33,137 nt of DNA from Candidatus Magasanikiibacteriota bacterium (GTDB lineage: Bacteria > Patescibacteriota > Patescibacteriia > Magasanikbacterales > GWA2-37-8), in contig CALRGC010000010.1 of NCBI GenBank assembly GCA_943357105.1, forward strand, positions 1-33,137. The letters run 5' to 3'. Below, piece after piece: positions 2,000 through 27,412 of the stretch. Under the pieces are notes generated by a model. It was not told the DNA's origin. It saw only the letters and a program-made list of their open reading frames with translations, and ran no database searches. Position 1 is the stretch's first letter; each line of letters starts with the position of its first letter. Made by a program: the position numbers and the translations under genes.

Positions 2000-4900
2000 C
2001 TACGGCTCGGTAGGAGTAGAGGGTGCAGAAGGCAGAGGTGTTTGGTCAGGAATTGCTACAACAGCTGGGGTTGGCACAACTGGCGGTTCAATAACCGGCG
2101 CGACCGATGATTCTAAATTGAGAGGTGGTACAGGTGATTTATCGGTAGTTATCAAGGGAACAGATGTCTGCACAGGAGCTGTATTGACTACACTTGATGT
2201 CGATTCTGTATTTGATAAAGCGGCTGAAGTAGTTGTGATAATAGCTGTAGTACTACTAGAAATAAAATCTAAATTAAGATTGACAGAAGGATTACCGGTG
2301 TTATTAATTATTGAATTGTTTATAATATTACCACTATTTGTCTGCGCTTCTTCATTTTTTCTACTAGCGACCACCATCCAATCAAAAGTGGCATTACTAT
2401 TGCCGCCATTTAATTCCTTGACGGTAAATCCTTGCGCTGTTTTTTCACTAACATAAATACCTTTGGCTTCACCGGAAGTCAAAGTAATATTAATTTTAAT
2501 TGGCTGTTGTTGATCGATAACTTCTTGAACATATTGATCAAACACCACCTTGACTTCTCCCGATACCATCTGTGAAGAACTGGAAAAAACAAACTCGGAA
2601 TTTGGTGATTGCACGGCATACATGTCTTTATCACCTTGCGATGTATTTAAACGAGTAATAAATCTACCTTGTTCATCAATTAACCAACGATTATTTTTAC
2701 CAATTATAACTGAAACATTCAATAATTGATTGCCTTGCAAATTTAAATCTCCGGCATTATAAGTAAGATTTCCGCCAATATTTTGAACATTTAAATTTTG
2801 TTCCGCTCCAAATTTCACTCCTTGAACAGCCGCCAATCTTTGCAGATTAGTTTTCATTAGCGACAAAGTACTGGCACTGTTATTCACCCAACCGGTTTTT
2901 ACCAAACCCATTATTTTCCCAGTGCCACTAGTTGCCAAATCTTCCAAGGCCAAACCGACTACACTAACTGTTTTCAAATCTTCGTCTTTCTGACTGTCAT
3001 AACGCATAGCATATCCGGGCAAAGAAGCGGTCACTAACAAATCACCCTTTTTAATTGGACCATTCTCAGAACTTACTTTTATCGGCACTCGCCCAACCAT
3101 TGCCATTAAAGCAGTGTTGTGGGTTTTTCCGTTACCAACGACAATAGTAGGGTTAGTGGAAATAACACCGGCAACCGTCTCACTGTATGCTTCACTACTG
3201 CGACGATAAGTATCAGCATTATTTATATCTACTGAGACTACATCACCGGCTTCAACATTTTCGTCAGAAGATATATCCACTCGTTCCGCTAAATCACCTG
3301 GATTGGTAGAAGTTCCAAAAACTGCGCCAGCGGCATAAATATTACCATTGGTGCGCACATCGCCATTAGACATTACAGAAAAACGCGGGTCATTATTGGA
3401 ACGCAATGATAATAAATAATTACTATTTGAATTGTCAAAACCTTCCGCGTTAAATATAAAAGCATGTGTATCGTTAGTTTTCGATTCCAATTGAGCTACA
3501 CCATTAAAAATTAATTTATAGGGTGAAGCTTCACTGCCTAAAGTAAGAGTTGAACTATTGGTATTTACCGTTAAAGCTTTATATAACTGATTCTGCCAAC
3601 CTAAATCTACAAATCCAATAATAGTGCTTTGGATTGTGCCAGAATATCCTTCCATGGCTATGGCCACTACCGGCACCTCACCTACAGCTTTAGCGGCCAC
3701 ACCATCTATAGTAGATAGAGTTAGTTTATCTCCTGGATTGATAATACCATTCTCTAAAGAAACTTTTATCGGCACACGACCGGCTAAAGCCACTTTTACT
3801 TTTCCTATATTCTCAGTTGGATTGGCCAGATCACCACCACCCAATAAGAAGCCTGGATCTGTAGAAACTACACCCACCATTTTATCAACTTCACTACTAG
3901 AACATTTTTTTACACCGACGGCTATAGAAGAATCAATACAAACTACATCACCTTCCTTAGGGCAGTTGCCATTAGATGAACATGAATTATTAATCGGATA
4001 AGTTTCAGCCAAGTCCAGACTAGTACTGGCGGTAATATAGGCAGTGGCACGAATAAAACCATTAACACCAATTGCACCATTACTCGCTCCGCCAGCATCT
4101 ATTTTTATTTTATATGAAGTGCCGTTAAAAGAAGTCGTATTCATTAGGATGTTACCGGATGAATTAATGATAAATATCGCCGCATTAGTGCTAGAAGAAA
4201 TTTGAAAAAAACTTCCACCAGAAATATTAGAGTGGATAGACAACGGACCTCCCATATCTATTGAGCCACCTGCATTAATTGCATTATGGACCGATAAATT
4301 ATTTCCAACATCCGCATTTTCCCAAACGGTCAGATCATTAGTGTTTATATTTCCAATACTGGCGGCACTAATATCCGCCCCTTTTATATCTAAAATAGCT
4401 AAATTGGCTGAACTTCTAGAAACAATATAGGCATATTTACCGGAAATGAACACACTACCAGGAGCAGACAAATTTGAACTACTGCTATAAATACCGATTA
4501 ATTTTAAACTAGTAGTAGTTGAGATATCAACTATAGACAAACTGTTGGCACTGGCCGCAGTCACATAAGCATATTTTCCAGAAACATAAACACTATTTAT
4601 ACCATTTAGATTAGTAGCATCAATTAAACTACCAGCTACTGTGGGTGTAGTTGGATCAGATATATCTACTAAAGCCAGCGACTTGGAGATATTACCGGCC
4701 ACGTAAGCATAATTCCCAGACACATAAACTGAAAGCGGACCGTTCATATTTGTACCATCTGAAACAGAACCTACTATGGTGGGGCTATCTGGAACAGAAA
4801 CATCAATTACCACCAAATAATTATTATCGCGACTAACCGCGTAAGCATACTTACCATTTACATATACATCCTCTACTGAACTAAGTTTAGTTGCATCGGT

Positions 4901-6397
4901 CACATGACCAACCACTCTCAAACTATAGGGATTGGAAACATCAACTACTGATACTGTATTAGTAGTATAATCACCAACATAGGCATAGTTACCAGACACA
5001 TAAACTGAAGAAGCGCCAGTTAATAAAGAGTTATCAGTAATTGTCCCAACAATGGACATCGACTTCGGATTGGAAATATCCACAATATTTAAAGTGTTGG
5101 AAGCATAAGATGCAATATAGGCATATTTACCCACTACCGTCAAAGCTCGATTAAATGTTCCTGCAATACCAGCAATACTTAAATAACTAATAGCTGTTGG
5201 ATTGGCTTTATTCTCAATATTTATACTTACCAGACCGTTAGCTGTAAGGGCATAGGCATTTTTACCATTAACATAAATAGATACGCCGGCTGGGCTACCT
5301 GAAAAAGTAAGAGTCCCGGATAAAGTTGGATTCACCGGACTGTCTACCAATAATGTGCCATCATATATATGCAACTTTTGTTGCGGTGTAGAAGTGCCTA
5401 TTCCAATATTCCCACTAAAACTGGTGGTGGCACCAAAAAGAGCAGTACCAATAACACTTAATGTATTACCAACACTGGTATTATTAGTAACATTTAAAGA
5501 GCCAATAGTTGAACTGCTGATTGTTGTCGTAGCCAGAGTGGTGGTGACACTAAAAGTATTAAGACCGGTAAAAGTTTGATTTGAAGCCAACAGCGCCAAG
5601 GTGGAAGAGTTAGAAAGATCACTAACGCTAATCGTACTGGTAGACCAAGTACCGGCAGTTACCTTTACAAACCCGGTCCAACCGGATGAATTTTGACCCG
5701 TACCGCCATAAGCATTGGAAATTACCGTGCCATTCCAAGTGCCGGAAGTAATCGTACCAAAAGAAGAATTACCGGTAACACTAAGTAAACCACTAATGGT
5801 TGTACTAGCTAAAGTAGAAGTGCCAGATACATACAATCCAGTAGAAGTTACAGTTTTAAAATTAAAGTTACCGCTTGAATCAGCTATTGGAATGTAAGCC
5901 GAAGTCTGCGGTGTGGCTGTCGCACTAATACCGTCTAAATATTTAGCATTAAAAGCATACGGAGCGGCCGTCAAACGTTTACGCGGCGATAGCGTCTCTG
6001 ATCCGATGATTACCTCCAAATAAACTGCGGAATTATTTTTAAATATTGTTGGATCTAAAGAATTAGTGCCAGTATCCCCTAAATTTACTGTAAAAAATCC
6101 ATTACTTAAAGTAGTGCTGACGGCTTGAGGAGAGCTGGTAGTACTGGAAGCTGAATACAATGCCGTACCACCACTTAAAGCATCATACAAAACAAACTTC
6201 ATCGACTGGGTAGTAGTGGCTACTGAACCATTTACCAATAATTTTCCTTGATAAGTAACAATGGTTGGGACATTAGCCGCTTGGGCTAAATTTTTGTTCA
6301 AAAATATTATAAAAGAAAAACAGAATAAAAATATCGCCGTATACCAAAATTGACGGTTTTTCAGGCCTATTTTTATTTTCTTTCCGAAATCTTCCAT
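2000..6397 (-). CDS. Giant exported adhesin-like protein with tail-fibre-like N-terminal repeats, LVIVD-type beta-propeller and two copies of a DLAE/GDVV...VPIKVS domain
   Basis: N-terminal hydrophobic segment (FWYTAIFLFCFSFIIFLNKNLAQA); IGIGTSTPQQKLHIYDG; seven G(K/N)xAY units with xxIVDIS motifs; LAETYP...GDVVCID...GVVSTDPG...GRVPIKVSLENG and LAERVD...GDVVSVD...GVISTNP...GRVPIKVSSENG; Pro/Ser/Thr-rich C-terminus. Confidence 0.85.
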   Translation of the reverse strand: MEDFGKKIKIGLKNRQFWYTAIFLFCFSFIIFLNKNLAQAANVPTIVTYQGKLLVNGSVATTTQSMKFVLYDALSGGTALYSASSTTSSPQAVSTTLSNGFFTVNLGDTGTNSLDPTIFKNNSAVYLEVIIGSETLSPRKRLTAAPYAFNAKYLDGISATATPQTSAYIPIADSSGNFNFKTVTSTGLYVSGTSTLASTTISGLLSVTGNSSFGTITSGTWNGTVISNAYGGTGQNSSGWTGFVKVTAGTWSTSTISVSDLSNSSTLALLASNQTFTGLNTFSVTTTLATTTISSSTIGSLNVTNNTSVGNTLSVIGTALFGATTSFSGNIGIGTSTPQQKLHIYDGTLLVDSPVNPTLSGTLTFSGSPAGVSIYVNGKNAYALTANGLVSINIENKANPTAISYLSIAGIAGTFNRALTVVGKYAYIASYASNTLNIVDISNPKSMSIVGTITDNSLLTGASSVYVSGNYAYVGDYTTNTVSVVDVSNPYSLRVVGHVTDATKLSSVEDVYVNGKYAYAVSRDNNYLVVIDVSVPDSPTIVGSVSDGTNMNGPLSVYVSGNYAYVAGNISKSLALVDISDPTTPTVAGSLIDATNLNGINSVYVSGKYAYVTAASANSLSIVDISTTTSLKLIGIYSSSSNLSAPGSVFISGKYAYIVSRSSANLAILDIKGADISAASIGNINTNDLTVWENADVGNNLSVHNAINAGGSIDMGGPLSIHSNISGGSFFQISSSTNAAIFIINSSGNILMNTTSFNGTSYKIKIDAGGASNGAIGVNGFIRATAYITASTSLDLAETYPINNSCSSNGNCPKEGDVVCIDSSIAVGVKKCSSSEVDKMVGVVSTDPGFLLGGGDLANPTENIGKVKVALAGRVPIKVSLENGIINPGDKLTLSTIDGVAAKAVGEVPVVAIAMEGYSGTIQSTIIGFVDLGWQNQLYKALTVNTNSSTLTLGSEASPYKLIFNGVAQLESKTNDTHAFIFNAEGFDNSNSNYLLSLRSNNDPRFSVMSNGDVRTNGNIYAAGAVFGTSTNPGDLAERVDISSDENVEAGDVVSVDINNADTYRRSSEAYSETVAGVISTNPTIVVGNGKTHNTALMAMVGRVPIKVSSENGPIKKGDLLVTASLPGYAMRYDSQKDEDLKTVSVVGLALEDLATSGTGKIMGLVKTGWVNNSASTLSLMKTNLQRLAAVQGVKFGAEQNLNVQNIGGNLTYNAGDLNLQGNQLLNVSVIIGKNNRWLIDEQGRFITRLNTSQGDKDMYAVQSPNSEFVFSSSSQMVSGEVKVVFDQYVQEVIDQQQPIKINITLTSGEAKGIYVSEKTAQGFTVKELNGGNSNATFDWMVVASRKNEEAQTNSGNIINNSIINNTGNPSVNLNLDFISSSTTAIITTTSAALSNTESTSSVVNTAPVQTSVPLITTDKSPVPPLNLESSVAPVIEPPVVPTPAVVAIPDQTPLPSAPSTPTEP

Positions 6398-13347: not shown

Positions 13348-13363
13348 TGTTTTATGTGAAACA
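13348..13363 (+). promoter_or_regulatory. parS-like site 1 (TGTTTTATGTGAAACA)
   Basis: Two differences from the canonical parS TGTTTCACGTGAAACA; keeps an intact GTGAAACA half-site. Confidence 0.4.
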
Positions 13364-13628: not shown

Positions 13629-13644
13629 TGTTTCACGTTAAACT
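13629..13644 (+). promoter_or_regulatory. parS-like site 2 (TGTTTCACGTTAAACT)
   Basis: Two differences from the canonical parS TGTTTCACGTGAAACA. Confidence 0.5.
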
Positions 13645-13719: not shown

Positions 13720-13735
13720 TGTTTCACGTTAAACA
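13720..13735 (+). promoter_or_regulatory. parS-like site 3 (TGTTTCACGTTAAACA)
   Basis: One difference from the canonical parS TGTTTCACGTGAAACA. Confidence 0.6.
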
Positions 13736-13850
13736 ACCAAAAAAGATATAAAAATGGCTATTAAAGTACCTTAAAATACAAAATTTGTATACACTAGTCT
13801 ATACAAACACACTTTTTAACCAAGTTATCCTCTTTTTCATCCCCAAATAA

Positions 13851-14148: not shown

Positions 14149-15222
14149 ATGGCCAATATTATCTTAATCATTATCTCCTCCGGCTTATTTATTATCTTGT
14201 TATTTCTATATAACAAACTTAAAGAGCTGCAAAAACCTAAAGACGATAACAATTCCTTCGTATTATTGCAGAATCAAATTCAAGACCTTGGCCGCCAAAT
14301 GGAAAAAAAGATTGGCGACACCCACAACGCGATGAATCTCAACCAAACCAACATGCATCAAGCTATTCAAGGGCAATTTGGTCAAAGCGCTAAAATAATT
14401 AGCGAGGTAACCGAAAAACTTACCAAGCTGGATGAGACTAATAAACAAATAATGGGTTTTGCCGATCAGCTCCAAGACCTGGAAAATATTTTACAAAATC
14501 CCAAGCACCGTGGCATTCTAGGGGAGTACTATCTGGAAAATGTTTTAAAAAATGTTTTGCCGCCGGGTAGCTATCAGATGCAATACAAATTTGAAAATGG
14601 CGATATTGTGGATGCAGTGGTTTTTGTTAAAGATAAAGTCATACCAATTGACTCCAAATTCAGTTTGGAAAATTACAATCGCGCCGTGAGTGAAAAAGAT
14701 CCAGAACGCAAGTTAGAGTTAGAGGGTTTCTTTAAAGCCGACCTCAAAAATAGAATTAACGAAACCAGTAAATATATTAAACCAAAAGAAGGCACTATGG
14801 ATTTCGCGTTTATGTTCATCCCTTCTGAAGGAATATACTATGATCTATTGGTGAATCAGGTTGGCACTCTCAAAACCAACACTCAAGATCTGATTGAATA
14901 CGCTTTCAAAGAAAAACATGTGGTGATTGTTTCACCCACTTCTTTTCTGGCTTATCTCCAAACTGTCCTACAGGGACTGCGCGCGATGCAGATAGAAGAG
15001 TCGGCCAAAGAAATTCGCCAACGAGTAGAGGAGCTTAGCAAACATATGCTGGCCTATGATGAATATTTGAAAAGACTTGGCGCCAATTTAGGCACCACCG
15101 TAAACAGTTACAACACTGCCTACAAAGAATTTAATAAAATTGATAAAGACGTTGTCCGTATTGTCGGCACCGAAAAACAAATTGAGCCATCATACTTAGA
15201 AAAACCAAACTTAGAAGAATAA
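14149..15222 (+). CDS. rmuC: DNA recombination protein RmuC
   Basis: N-terminal TM, coiled coil, then core NPKHRGILGEYYLENVLKNVLPPGSYQMQYKFENGDIVDAVVFVKDKVIPIDSKFSLENY ... FMFIPSEGIYYDLL ... VIVSPTSFLAYLQTVLQGLRAM. Confidence 0.95.
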   Translation: MANIILIIISSGLFIILLFLYNKLKELQKPKDDNNSFVLLQNQIQDLGRQMEKKIGDTHNAMNLNQTNMHQAIQGQFGQSAKIISEVTEKLTKLDETNKQIMGFADQLQDLENILQNPKHRGILGEYYLENVLKNVLPPGSYQMQYKFENGDIVDAVVFVKDKVIPIDSKFSLENYNRAVSEKDPERKLELEGFFKADLKNRINETSKYIKPKEGTMDFAFMFIPSEGIYYDLLVNQVGTLKTNTQDLIEYAFKEKHVVIVSPTSFLAYLQTVLQGLRAMQIEESAKEIRQRVEELSKHMLAYDEYLKRLGANLGTTVNSYNTAYKEFNKIDKDVVRIVGTEKQIEPSYLEKPNLEE

Positions 15223-15401
15223 ACAAATAAAAAACGCATAATTTTTACCACATAAAAGTGAGCCCCTAATTGGCGTAAGTAAATTTGAGTGGTGCCTCTC
15301 ACGAGGCAACGGCTCTACCCTTAGAGCCGTAACGAAAATTTATAGCCAATTATGCGAACTTTTATCAGGTAAAAATTATGCGTTTTTTATTTGTTTATTC
15401 T
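15216..15401. repeat. 186-bp element bounded by perfect 34-bp inverted repeats with nested stems and two apical hairpins
   Basis: Arms AGAATAAACAAATAAAAAACGCATAATTTTTACC (15216-15249) and its exact reverse complement (15368-15401). Internal nested pairs ATAAAAGT/ACTTTTAT, TAATTGGC/GCCAATTA, TAAATTT/AAATTTA. Hairpins TGCCTC-TCAC-GAGGCA and ACGGCTCTA-CCCT-TAGAGCCGT. Confidence 0.95.
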
Positions 15402-15418: not shown

Positions 15419-16123
15419 TTATTTAATTTCAATAGATTTAATCACAGTAGGCGTCACCGGCGTAGAAGCCTCACCAAACATCCCTGGCTTTACTTCACTT
15501 TCCGCAATTTTATCCACTGTATTCATCCCGCTGGTCACTTTTCCAAAAATTACATAATTATGCGGCAAAGGATAGTCGGCGTGCATTACAAAAAACTGAC
15601 TGCCATTGGTATTTGGACCAGAATTAGCCATCGCCACGGTACCACGAGTATACTCGCCATCAAATTTTTCATCATCAAATTTATACCCAGGGCCACCGGT
15701 GCCATTGCCCAATGGATCGCCTCCCTGAATCATAAAACCCTTGATAACTCGATGAAATATCGTTTTATCATAAAATCCTTTGCGGGCCAAAGTGACAAAA
15801 TTTTCTACTGTCTTTGGCGTCTGACCTAAATTAAAAGTGATGGTAAAATCACCACTGCTAGTATGAACTTCGGCCAAATATTGTTTCTTAGGATCAAAAT
15901 TATCCATAGAATTTTTCTTATTTAAATTATTAGTTGATTTAGCACTACTAGTGGCGACCGCCTTAGTAGTGGTAGTTTCTAACATACTACCAGTAGTAGT
16001 AGCATAATTCAATACCTCAATTGGAGCTGATTTAGTTGGCGAGGGCGCTTCTATTTTTGTTCCACATCCTGACAAAAATGGAATTAATAAAAGTAAAAAT
16101 ATTATCAACGATATCTTCTTCAT
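15419..16123 (-). CDS. Cyclophilin-type peptidyl-prolyl cis-trans isomerase, lipoprotein
   Basis: Lipobox LSGC; FHRVIKGFMIQGGDPLGNGTGGPGYKFDDE; MANSGPNTNGSQFFV. Confidence 0.96.
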   Translation of the reverse strand: MKKISLIIFLLLLIPFLSGCGTKIEAPSPTKSAPIEVLNYATTTGSMLETTTTKAVATSSAKSTNNLNKKNSMDNFDPKKQYLAEVHTSSGDFTITFNLGQTPKTVENFVTLARKGFYDKTIFHRVIKGFMIQGGDPLGNGTGGPGYKFDDEKFDGEYTRGTVAMANSGPNTNGSQFFVMHADYPLPHNYVIFGKVTSGMNTVDKIAESEVKPGMFGEASTPVTPTVIKSIEIK

Positions 16124-19601: not shown

Positions 19602-19610
19602 ATTAAACAA

Positions 19611-19645
19611 AATAAAAAATCCCGACTAATTCGGGATTTTTTATT
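19611..19645. terminator. Bidirectional terminator between convergent genes
   Basis: AATAAAAAATCCCGA-CTAAT-TCGGGATTTTTTATT, a 15-bp stem with A/T tracts on both sides. Confidence 0.85.
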
Positions 19646-19656
19646 TTTAAAAAGAG

Positions 19657-22619: not shown

Positions 22620-25160
22620 TCAACCCCGCTTGATAATCTTTCCCGCCACACTAGCCACCTTTTTGACACCACTCACCACAATAGCTCCCCGCGATCTGGC
22701 CAAAAAACCCAAGATTAGAGTGGTTACGCCGCCGGCGGTAGCGGTCAAATATTTTTCTTCGGTGTCGCGCTGATTGGCTTTATCCGCTTCCATTTGCTGA
22801 GATAGCACCTGATCGGAATATCCCACCACTTTGATATCTTTTTCATCGCGCGGCGATACCCGCAAACCATTTTTAGATTGCTCCAAAATTCCCACCACTT
22901 CCAATTTGTCTCCTAATTTAAAATCTTGTTTATTAATTTTTGCTCCCGCGCGAAAATATATTACCGTTTCACTATCACCATCATCAACATATAGATAATT
23001 ACTTTTTATCGCAGTGATATCACCGTTAATTTTCACCAAAGCACCAACCGCATCCGCGCCGGCATCCGCCAAATTGAGCGGTTCAAAATTTGGATCTTTC
23101 CCCAAAACATTTACACTATTTTTATTGGCTATCTTCAGTCGTTTCACTCCAGACACTTCCGATTCCTCACCGCGCACGGCCACCTTATCGCCAATTTTTA
23201 AATTTGGAAAATCTTTTTTGTACTGATACACCTGATAGCCGGTTTCACCGTCGGAAATATAAAAATATTGCGAACCAAAATTTCCCGGTAGCTCCGTCAC
23301 CACTCCTTGCACCGATCGCCAATTACCAACACTAGCAGTTTTTAATGTTTTTGTTTCCTTTTTATCCGCTTCTTTTTTTACTGTCTTGGCACTTAACAAA
23401 ATTATTTTATCTATCTCTTTATCATTGGGCGAAGTCAGTCGAATTTCATCACCGTCTTTATCAAAACTCAGATGCGTAATACTGCGAAAAAATTTTAAGG
23501 TGCTTGAACCAAAAATGTTGGTATTTTCCGGAATCTCATACTCCTTGCCGCTCTTATTTTTTATCTTCCAACCGGAAATATTTTTGGAAGAGGTAGAAAA
23601 ATTTGCCAACTCAATAAATTCATCGTCACTGCTGGTAGCATCGACCAAATATTGGCCAATCTTTACCTGAGTTTGAGAAATAGAAAATTCCGGACCAACA
23701 TAAATTTTAAAATCTTTTTTACCGGTAGTGCTGGCCGTGCTCACGCCGGCAACTGTGACCAGATATGTGCCGGCAGTAGAGTAATTATGAGTAACAATAA
23801 AACCGGTACTGGTAATGTTATCACCAAAATTCCAAACCAAACTAATATCCCCACCACGCGGATCGGCCGTGCCTTCAGCGCTAAAAACTCCCGCCTCATT
23901 CACATCCAAACCATACGGCCAATTCAATTTCCAACTAATTTTTACCGGATCTACCACGCTTTTAATAGTAGTGGTACTGATTTTATTTGTTTTTGTACTA
24001 GTAGAGGAACTACCGACAACAGCAGAAACATTATTTGAGGAGCCAGCACCACCACTCGTGCTACCACTATTGGTATTTACTACCGGTGCCACCATTTTAT
24101 TGGCCGCGCCCACCGTGATATCTGTCGTAATTGCCCAATCATTGTCATTGTCCGTATCAACACCGTCGGATTTACGAATAATTGACTGACCTTTTGGCGG
24201 CGCATCCAAACCATCACTGCCATACACCACCTCATCCACAATATTATTATTTTCGTCTTTTAATATCACCGAATCGCCATCATTATTTAAATACCGATCG
24301 GTCAACAGATCCACTACTAACCAATCATGGCCTAAAATATTTCCAGAAAATAGTTTACAACTTGTGCCGGTAGAATCACAGATATGAGCAGTAATAATTT
24401 CCGCTGAGCTGGTACTATTATTATACAGCTCCACCAACTCATTGCCGTCAGTTGGATCAGAAATGATTTCATTTAACTTAATAAAGGCCCAATCAAAGAC
24501 CGACGCAATTGTACTCGAGGTAGAAGTGCTGGTGGATTGAGGTGCAGTGGTGGTGGGAGCGATAGAAGTAACAAAATTCGTCGATGTAGTATTTGTAGTC
24601 GAAGCGGTTGAAGAACTATTTTGATTAACAACTACAAAATTGCTATTTTGCGCGCCAACTGTATTACCAGATATATGCTCCTGCCAATTGGCGGCCGAAT
24701 AATCACTAACAAAAGGATCTTTGCGCTCTAGTGAAAACTTACTGCTAGATACATAAGTAAATTTCTCCACAAAATTTCCAGCTTCGTCTTTTAAACCAAT
24801 CTCTTCGCCGCTTTCATTGAGAATACTCCAAGAGGAATCCAATACCGAACCGATAAAATTCGGATAATCCCGCAAAAACAGATCGCCATCCTGACAAATT
24901 ACTCCAAATTCTCCCGGCGATATTATACTATCCGTTGTGCTCACGGCCTTGAGACTGTGATTGGTATTATTTTCCCAAAATTTCCAACTACTTAGATCAA
25001 CCGTGCCATCTCCCTTATTCCACACCTCTATCCATTCGTGCGTGCTGGTCGGATAGGCGCCGATTTCGTTGATCATTATGTCCGTGTTGGCCGCCCAAAG
25101 TTTTTGCGCAATAAAAAAACTGCCAAAAACAAAGACAGTCAAAAAAAATAAATATTTCAT
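22620..25160 (-). CDS. Exported protein with repeated lamin-tail-like domains, a PKD domain, two OB-fold-like domains and a C-terminal hydrophobic segment
   Basis: MINEIGAYPTSTHEWIEVWNKGDGTVDLSSWKFW (LTD); LNEIISDPTDGNELVELYNNS; SLVWNFGDNITSTGFIVTHNYSTAGTYLVTV (PKD); DEFIELANFSTSSKNISGWKIKNKSG (LTD); VQGVVTELPGNFGSQYFYISDG and INGDITAIKSNYLYVDDGDSETVIYF (OB-like). Confidence 0.85.
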   Translation of the reverse strand: MKYLFFLTVFVFGSFFIAQKLWAANTDIMINEIGAYPTSTHEWIEVWNKGDGTVDLSSWKFWENNTNHSLKAVSTTDSIISPGEFGVICQDGDLFLRDYPNFIGSVLDSSWSILNESGEEIGLKDEAGNFVEKFTYVSSSKFSLERKDPFVSDYSAANWQEHISGNTVGAQNSNFVVVNQNSSSTASTTNTTSTNFVTSIAPTTTAPQSTSTSTSSTIASVFDWAFIKLNEIISDPTDGNELVELYNNSTSSAEIITAHICDSTGTSCKLFSGNILGHDWLVVDLLTDRYLNNDGDSVILKDENNNIVDEVVYGSDGLDAPPKGQSIIRKSDGVDTDNDNDWAITTDITVGAANKMVAPVVNTNSGSTSGGAGSSNNVSAVVGSSSTSTKTNKISTTTIKSVVDPVKISWKLNWPYGLDVNEAGVFSAEGTADPRGGDISLVWNFGDNITSTGFIVTHNYSTAGTYLVTVAGVSTASTTGKKDFKIYVGPEFSISQTQVKIGQYLVDATSSDDEFIELANFSTSSKNISGWKIKNKSGKEYEIPENTNIFGSSTLKFFRSITHLSFDKDGDEIRLTSPNDKEIDKIILLSAKTVKKEADKKETKTLKTASVGNWRSVQGVVTELPGNFGSQYFYISDGETGYQVYQYKKDFPNLKIGDKVAVRGEESEVSGVKRLKIANKNSVNVLGKDPNFEPLNLADAGADAVGALVKINGDITAIKSNYLYVDDGDSETVIYFRAGAKINKQDFKLGDKLEVVGILEQSKNGLRVSPRDEKDIKVVGYSDQVLSQQMEADKANQRDTEEKYLTATAGGVTTLILGFLARSRGAIVVSGVKKVASVAGKIIKRG

Positions 25161-27376: not shown

Positions 27377-27412
27377 AAAAATACCTGGACTATTTAGTCC
27401 AGGTATTTTTTT
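27377..27412. terminator. Strong bidirectional terminator
   Basis: AAAAATACCTGGACTA-TT-TAGTCCAGGTATTTTT, a perfect 16-bp stem between convergent genes. Confidence 0.85.

Follow-up and report, generated by a model that had tools for sequence, protein, structure and literature searches.

The Yersinia palindromic sequences (YPAL, also RU-2) are about 168 bp long and target sites that span or adjoin dyad symmetries (PMC2229807). Among other described repeats, the EFAR elements of Enterococcus are listed among the MITEs (PMC3733652), the SPRITE repeats of S. pneumoniae are named after a terminator-like hairpin (PMC10969869), and the REP/BIME sequences are intergenic hairpins that may act in termination or mRNA stability and also serve as IS targets (PMC3733652, PMC1525189). 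In mitochondria, potentially mobile, non-coding intergenic palindromes, including double hairpins, have been reported (PMC2800124). Furthermore, template switching creates and mends perfect stems and produces multibase compensatory changes (PMC8794818).

Here, we analyze a 186-bp palindrome at positions 15216-15401 of a 33,137-nt stretch of DNA (hereafter, the window) from the 925-kb, 34-contig genome (G000) of a Candidatus Magasanikiibacteriota bacterium. The palindrome lies between two convergent genes, rmuC on the left (14149-15222, + strand, PF02646) and a gene for a cyclophilin-type PPIase on the right (15419-16123, - strand, PF00160). We consider it probable, if far from certain, that it is one copy (of a family that we denote A) of a miniature dispersed element, palindromic and non-coding, that is non-autonomously mobile and sits on the bidirectional intrinsic terminator between rmuC and the PPIase gene.

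The architecture is as the initial annotation had described it. The left outer arm (34 nt, 15216-15249) is the exact reverse complement of the right outer arm (34 nt, 15368-15401), neither being assigned to a strand, and thus the two form perfect 34-bp terminal inverted repeats. The rmuC stop codon falls inside the left arm, at 15220-15222, and the frame of the PPIase gene ends 17 bp past the right arm. Apart from its inner end, ..TTTTTACC, the left arm is private to this locus, whereas the family A core, ACC...GGT (124 nt, 15247-15370, + strand), is common to nine other loci of the genome. The nested inner helices and the two abutting tip hairpins are all present: on the + strand, ATAAAAGT (15252-15259) pairs with ACTTTTAT (15358-15365), a helix invariant in all ten copies; GAGC (15260-15263) stands opposite GCGA (15354-15357), a frame that also bounds the tip of a second family, C; TAATTGGC (15267-15274) pairs with GCCAATTA (15345-15352), and GTAAATTT (15279-15286) with AAATTTAT (15336-15343). 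The tip consists of apical hairpin 1, TGCCTC-TCAC-GAGGCA (15293-15308, + strand), and apical hairpin 2, ACGGCTCTA-CCCT-TAGAGCCGT (15309-15330, + strand), the latter occurring in two main compensated versions across the copies. The predicted RNA fold of the palindrome has a free energy of -91.7 kcal/mol, compared with -34.4 for shuffled sequences (z -13.6), and that of the opposite strand -88.9 kcal/mol (z -12.8); folded as DNA, the palindrome reaches z -15.2. The fold is the same for both strands, a rod that forks at its tip into the Y shape foreseen from the letters. Perfect inverted repeats within 280 bp reach 36 bp in 150 kb of the real genome sequence, but do not exceed 12 bp in a Markov version of it.

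The initial annotation had pointed to further copies and to compensatory changes as informative, and both exist. We identified ten dispersed family A copies in this genome, in addition to two more families described below, and family A was absent from the 333 other genomes of the class among the 334 sampled, under the stricter filters used for the large genome searches. A 15-mer scan of genome contigs was too unspecific, with at least 117 unrelated matches. The copies are short and lack a conserved ORF. Their core, 120-124 nt long, reads ACC[AG]CATAAAAGTGAGCCCCTAATTGGCG...GCCAATTATGCGAACTTTTATCAGGT, with 97.7% identity among copies over its 88 conserved positions. Of the inverted repeats, only the inner TTACC..GGTAA and the core helices recur from copy to copy. 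The outer 20-30 bp of the arms differ at every locus and show no relation to one another, yet each copy is self-complementary over 23-36 bp. Of the 293 arm pairs, 288 are Watson-Crick, and the copy at ftsZ/nrdR (contig C8) shows a few mismatches. A remnant at the 3' end of clpP (C3:17071-17140) retains the arms as a simple hairpin whose loop holds the final bases of an A core, and would represent a deletion of the core joined at a GAA microhomology.

Within the alignment of the core and 12 nt of arm, 99.5% of the cells are paired. No two of the ten copies have the same apical hairpin 1, a hypervariable part that is paired in every one of them. Two-sided changes occur at 16 pairs, in 42 cells, and one-sided changes in none; this level of compensation was reached in 0 of 500 shuffles, and slid registers likewise came nowhere near it. 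The lack of one-sided (G-U) intermediates points to a structure required on both strands, or to copying of one arm from the other, rather than to an RNA made from one strand.

A scan of 370 kb for long inverted repeats revealed two sets besides family A in which the inner length is constant, and in both the arms are locus-specific and almost perfectly paired. The core of family B measures about 140 nt. With minus-strand echoes of the same loci left out of the tally, this family has 10 loci in the genome under study, 2 in its closest sister (G003), 5 in G004 and 5 in G020, with single matches in three other genomes. The 55-nt core of family C, GAGCGGGTTATG-hairpin-CATCC-hairpin-AAAAAGCGA, occurs in 8 to 21 copies in every genome of the genus. 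Three other genera of the same family have 7-17 copies, and isolated single copies occur beyond these, including one in another family of the class. Families A and C share the frame TTACC..GAGC...GCGA..GGTAA, and the motifs GAGC..GCGA (outer) and GAGTGG..AACGA (inner) are no more than suggestive of family A having arisen as a C-like frame that encloses a C-like tip. One copy of family C in the studied genome (C8:18279-18431) has 47-bp arms that extend into the last codons and stops of the convergent metK and a 580-aa ORF, and consequently both genes end in ...GTA AAA TAA.

These patterns bear on an alternative that we regard as unlikely, namely, that the palindromes form a structured RNA family, a cis-acting 3'-UTR element or a small RNA, in which the Y-shaped tip is conserved for an RNA function and the outer stem is the closing helix. 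The conserved tip and the fully compensated variation of the stems agree with it, as does the persistence of family C at one tRNA-adjacent locus in five species of two genera, where the arms are mostly wholly different yet well paired. In the family C arms, G-T also exceeds A-C mismatches, but this excess is chiefly core-proximal and thus assigns no strand. Against an RNA function stand the lack of one-sided changes in family A, the equal folding of the two strands and the complete absence of family A from the sister species. Moreover, the orientation relative to co-directional genes is mixed in family A (2 same, 1 opposite) and family B (5 and 3) and mostly antisense in family C (9 and 25), and a comparison of the palindrome with Rfam gave nothing above the gathering score, only sub-threshold plant miRNA hairpins.

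Comparison with related species shows what can stand at the same junctions. In G003, with 81-83% protein identity, the rmuC/PPIase junction carries a simple bidirectional terminator, ACAAAATAAAAAAACACCGGTA-TTGAT-TACCGGTGTTTTTTTATTTTGT, whose arms measure 22 bp and whose loop has 5 nt; its A/T foot and TTTATTCTTCTAA flank match those of the studied genome; no such hairpin was found at this junction in G001, G002 and G004. At the radA, pmm and C5 sites, family A in the studied genome likewise contrasts with simple terminators in the sisters, except that G004 carries a C element at the C5 site. Elsewhere, one tip is replaced by another: A in the studied genome vs C in G003 at groEL and at nrdR/ftsZ, where the A and C arms are recognizably homologous, A vs C in G002 at tsaD/parB, and B in two species vs C in two others at secY/recG and rpoC/yebC. 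Thus, orthologous junctions can hold A or C, B or C, a plain bidirectional terminator, or nothing. At metAP/ruvX, a B element with its arms is present where G003 has an 8-bp spacer; the B arms are therefore absent there, and a pre-existing hairpin is not needed. These genomes are drafts, mostly metagenome-derived, with one genome per species, so that the comparison is between species rather than across a single observed insertion event. The locus-private outer arms and the swapping of tip families at orthologous sites are the two features that had escaped the initial annotation.

As classified with simple ORF-based gene calls, the family A sites comprise 7 convergent, 3 co-directional and 0 divergent junctions, the family C sites 17, 34 and 5, and the family B sites 2, 8 and 7, respectively. 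Families A and C lie mostly at the 3' ends of genes, and family B mostly in 5' leaders. At convergent junctions, the foot of A and C elements is A-rich on the left and T-rich on the right, a pattern also found at two plain terminators in the window (19609-19647 and 27377-27410). At rmuC/PPIase, the foot of the right arm is the T-rich TTTTTTATTTGTTTATTCT on the + strand, with an A-rich counterpart on the - strand, and both transcripts between the convergent genes are predicted to carry a stable stem with a U-rich tract. Judging from this arrangement, the palindrome most likely remains a working terminator for transcription arriving from either side. A terminator scanner called no classical terminator at 15216-15401, because its loop limit excludes such a structure. 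The earlier suggestion of a specialized bidirectional terminator fits the site, given the plain bidirectional terminator of the closest sister. Several genes have a family B element in the 5' leader with arms that start 1-14 nt downstream of a -10-like hexamer (as in TTGACA-17-TATACT and TTGACC-17-TATTAT), which suggests that B mostly forms the 5' end of the mRNA. Together with a family A copy (C1:20827-20996) that lies within an operon-like co-directional gene pair and has no T-tract, this location of family B means that the term 'terminator' fails to cover every copy.

Could the palindrome be only an oversized terminator that grew in place, with template switching lengthening and perfecting hairpins and the repeats being by-products rather than mobile units? 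The known capacity of template switching to create and repair perfect stems (PMC8794818), the nearly complete Watson-Crick pairing of the family A arms and the simple terminators of this genome, which are long perfect palindromes too, would all be accommodated. This scenario accounts for the arms but not for the tips: the same 120-nt tip recurs at ten unrelated loci, which refutes it as a complete account, and we consider it improbable. Growth of the arms by template switching is nevertheless probably part of the best explanation.

That explanation, a non-autonomously mobile element on a terminator, does not include the target duplication proposed earlier. The GAA triplet thought to flank both ends does not do so, the trinucleotides that abut the arms being AGA and GAA, and no target-site duplication was detected in 24 copies, the flanks of which share a mean of 4.9 nt, compared with 4.7 nt at random positions. 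Of the three readings in the initial annotation, the mobile palindrome thus gains from the copies, and the terminator from the site, the GAA duplication falls, and the RNA is disfavored by the pattern of compensation. The search for a mobilizing enzyme covered two families, Y1_Tnp and RVT_1. Y1_Tnp was found in none of the five genomes of the genus and in 5 of 14 control genomes. The one reverse transcriptase (RT) of the studied genome is a 304-aa RVT_1 protein (L264:1351-2265, contig C19), which we take to resemble the RTs of diversity-generating retroelements; matches are also present in G001, G002 and G004. We rejected it as the mobilizing enzyme: the gene adjoins rpsB and tsf and is unlinked to the element, and G003, which is 88% complete, contains B and C elements without an RT match, so that there is no obvious connection between the RT and the elements.

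Under the favored reading, the tip of about 120 nt (ACC...GGT with the two apical hairpins) would be the movable unit, presumably moved in trans by an enzyme, and the outer stem would belong to the locus. Hairpin-rich sites may be preferred or merely tolerated, and, on a terminator foot, the element would keep or take over bidirectional termination. The arms could stay paired through selection for structure on both strands, through template switching during replication, or both. An excess of two-sided change among C-C orthologues points in this direction, although the automated count behind it is only partly reliable, being degraded by registers that failed. A, B and C would be alternative elements of one architecture, each able to take the place of another at a given site in a different species. 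A more far-reaching version of this scheme, which we put forward tentatively as possible rather than probable, is that these are modular mobile palindromes, in which the conserved double-hairpin tip is a cassette exchanged between locus-private stems (terminators for A and C, mRNA 5' ends for B). The cassette would be recognized by structure rather than by target sequence, the stems would be extended or repaired by fold-back copying, and at least three interchangeable tip families would be spreading in one genus without an identifiable transposase.

Two further alternatives carry little weight. Parvovirus-type termini are T-shaped, a long stem enclosing two small palindromes that abut each other, and the T/Y-shaped tip resembles them; the palindromes might accordingly be the ITR-like ends of a hairpin-ended virus or plasmid that integrated repeatedly. 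Each copy is, however, a lone palindrome, and viral contigs gave a single match to a core 16-mer, a chance match inside a structural gene, so that we hold this origin to be very improbable. An assembly or amplification artefact, to which the position of several copies near contig ends (for example, G003 C134 and G018 C5) might point, is scarcely credible given dozens of copies at differing loci in independent assemblies, with orthologous flanks and locus-specific stems.

The window contains other features of note. Three parS-like sites (13348-13363, 13629-13644 and 13720-13735), which match TGTTTCACGTGAAACA with 1-2 mismatches where 0.2 are expected by chance, lie in an extended non-coding region that precedes two tRNA genes and rmuC and may mark a ParB loading region near the origin; the GC skew does not switch within the 33,137 nt. 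An operator-like palindrome, TTGTATACACTAGTCTATACAA, is located at 13785-13806, with two copies of the motif upstream of an HTH-domain gene (C8, about 15955-16084) and a slightly changed version in G004 (L163, about 1329-1350). At 2000-6397, a 1465-aa protein with LVIVD repeats is encoded by a gene that also has internal repeats at the DNA level, which have diverged (family D1; 4386, 4524 and 5076). The 846-aa product of 22620-25160 combines three lamin-tail domains with a PKD domain.

The broader implication is that, in very small bacterial genomes, tiny mobile elements can land on terminator hairpins time and again, so that one junction is filled in one species and unfilled in its sister. 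The unrelated arms, nearly all Watson-Crick and, in family A, lacking one-sided intermediates, amount to a natural experiment on the origin and persistence of perfect stems, in which selection and template-switch copying become directly testable with strain-level data.

Compared with the known systems, the palindrome differs from the REPs, which are 20-40 bp long with a GTAG/CGTC tag, in size and ends, and the genus lacks a Y1 transposase; we accordingly rejected a REP/RAYT assignment, and the likeness to REP/BIME extends to intergenic hairpins with a putative role in termination. The mitochondrial elements are organellar, and the sponge RHE has conserved stems and variable loops, the reverse of family A. 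YPAL is similar in being palindromic, non-coding, intergenic and polymorphic between related genomes, and in having a dyad-symmetry target, the counterpart here being the simple terminator of G003 at the junction and of the sisters at radA, pmm and C5. Unlike the elements described here, YPAL makes target duplications of 3-26 bp and has inverted repeats that lie inside a single consensus, whereas the outer arms here are locus-private. Efar and SPRITE, compared by description rather than by sequence, are likewise small dispersed repeats and terminator-like MITEs, for which exchangeable tip families on locus-private stems are not described in the accessible literature. Locus-private stems under exchangeable tips match no known kind exactly and are undescribed in that literature, which is not proof of novelty. 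Short, non-coding and dispersed as MITEs are, if lacking a target duplication, the element works like a terminator-associated MITE, and its nearest kinds are the MITEs of the YPAL, Efar and SPRITE type.
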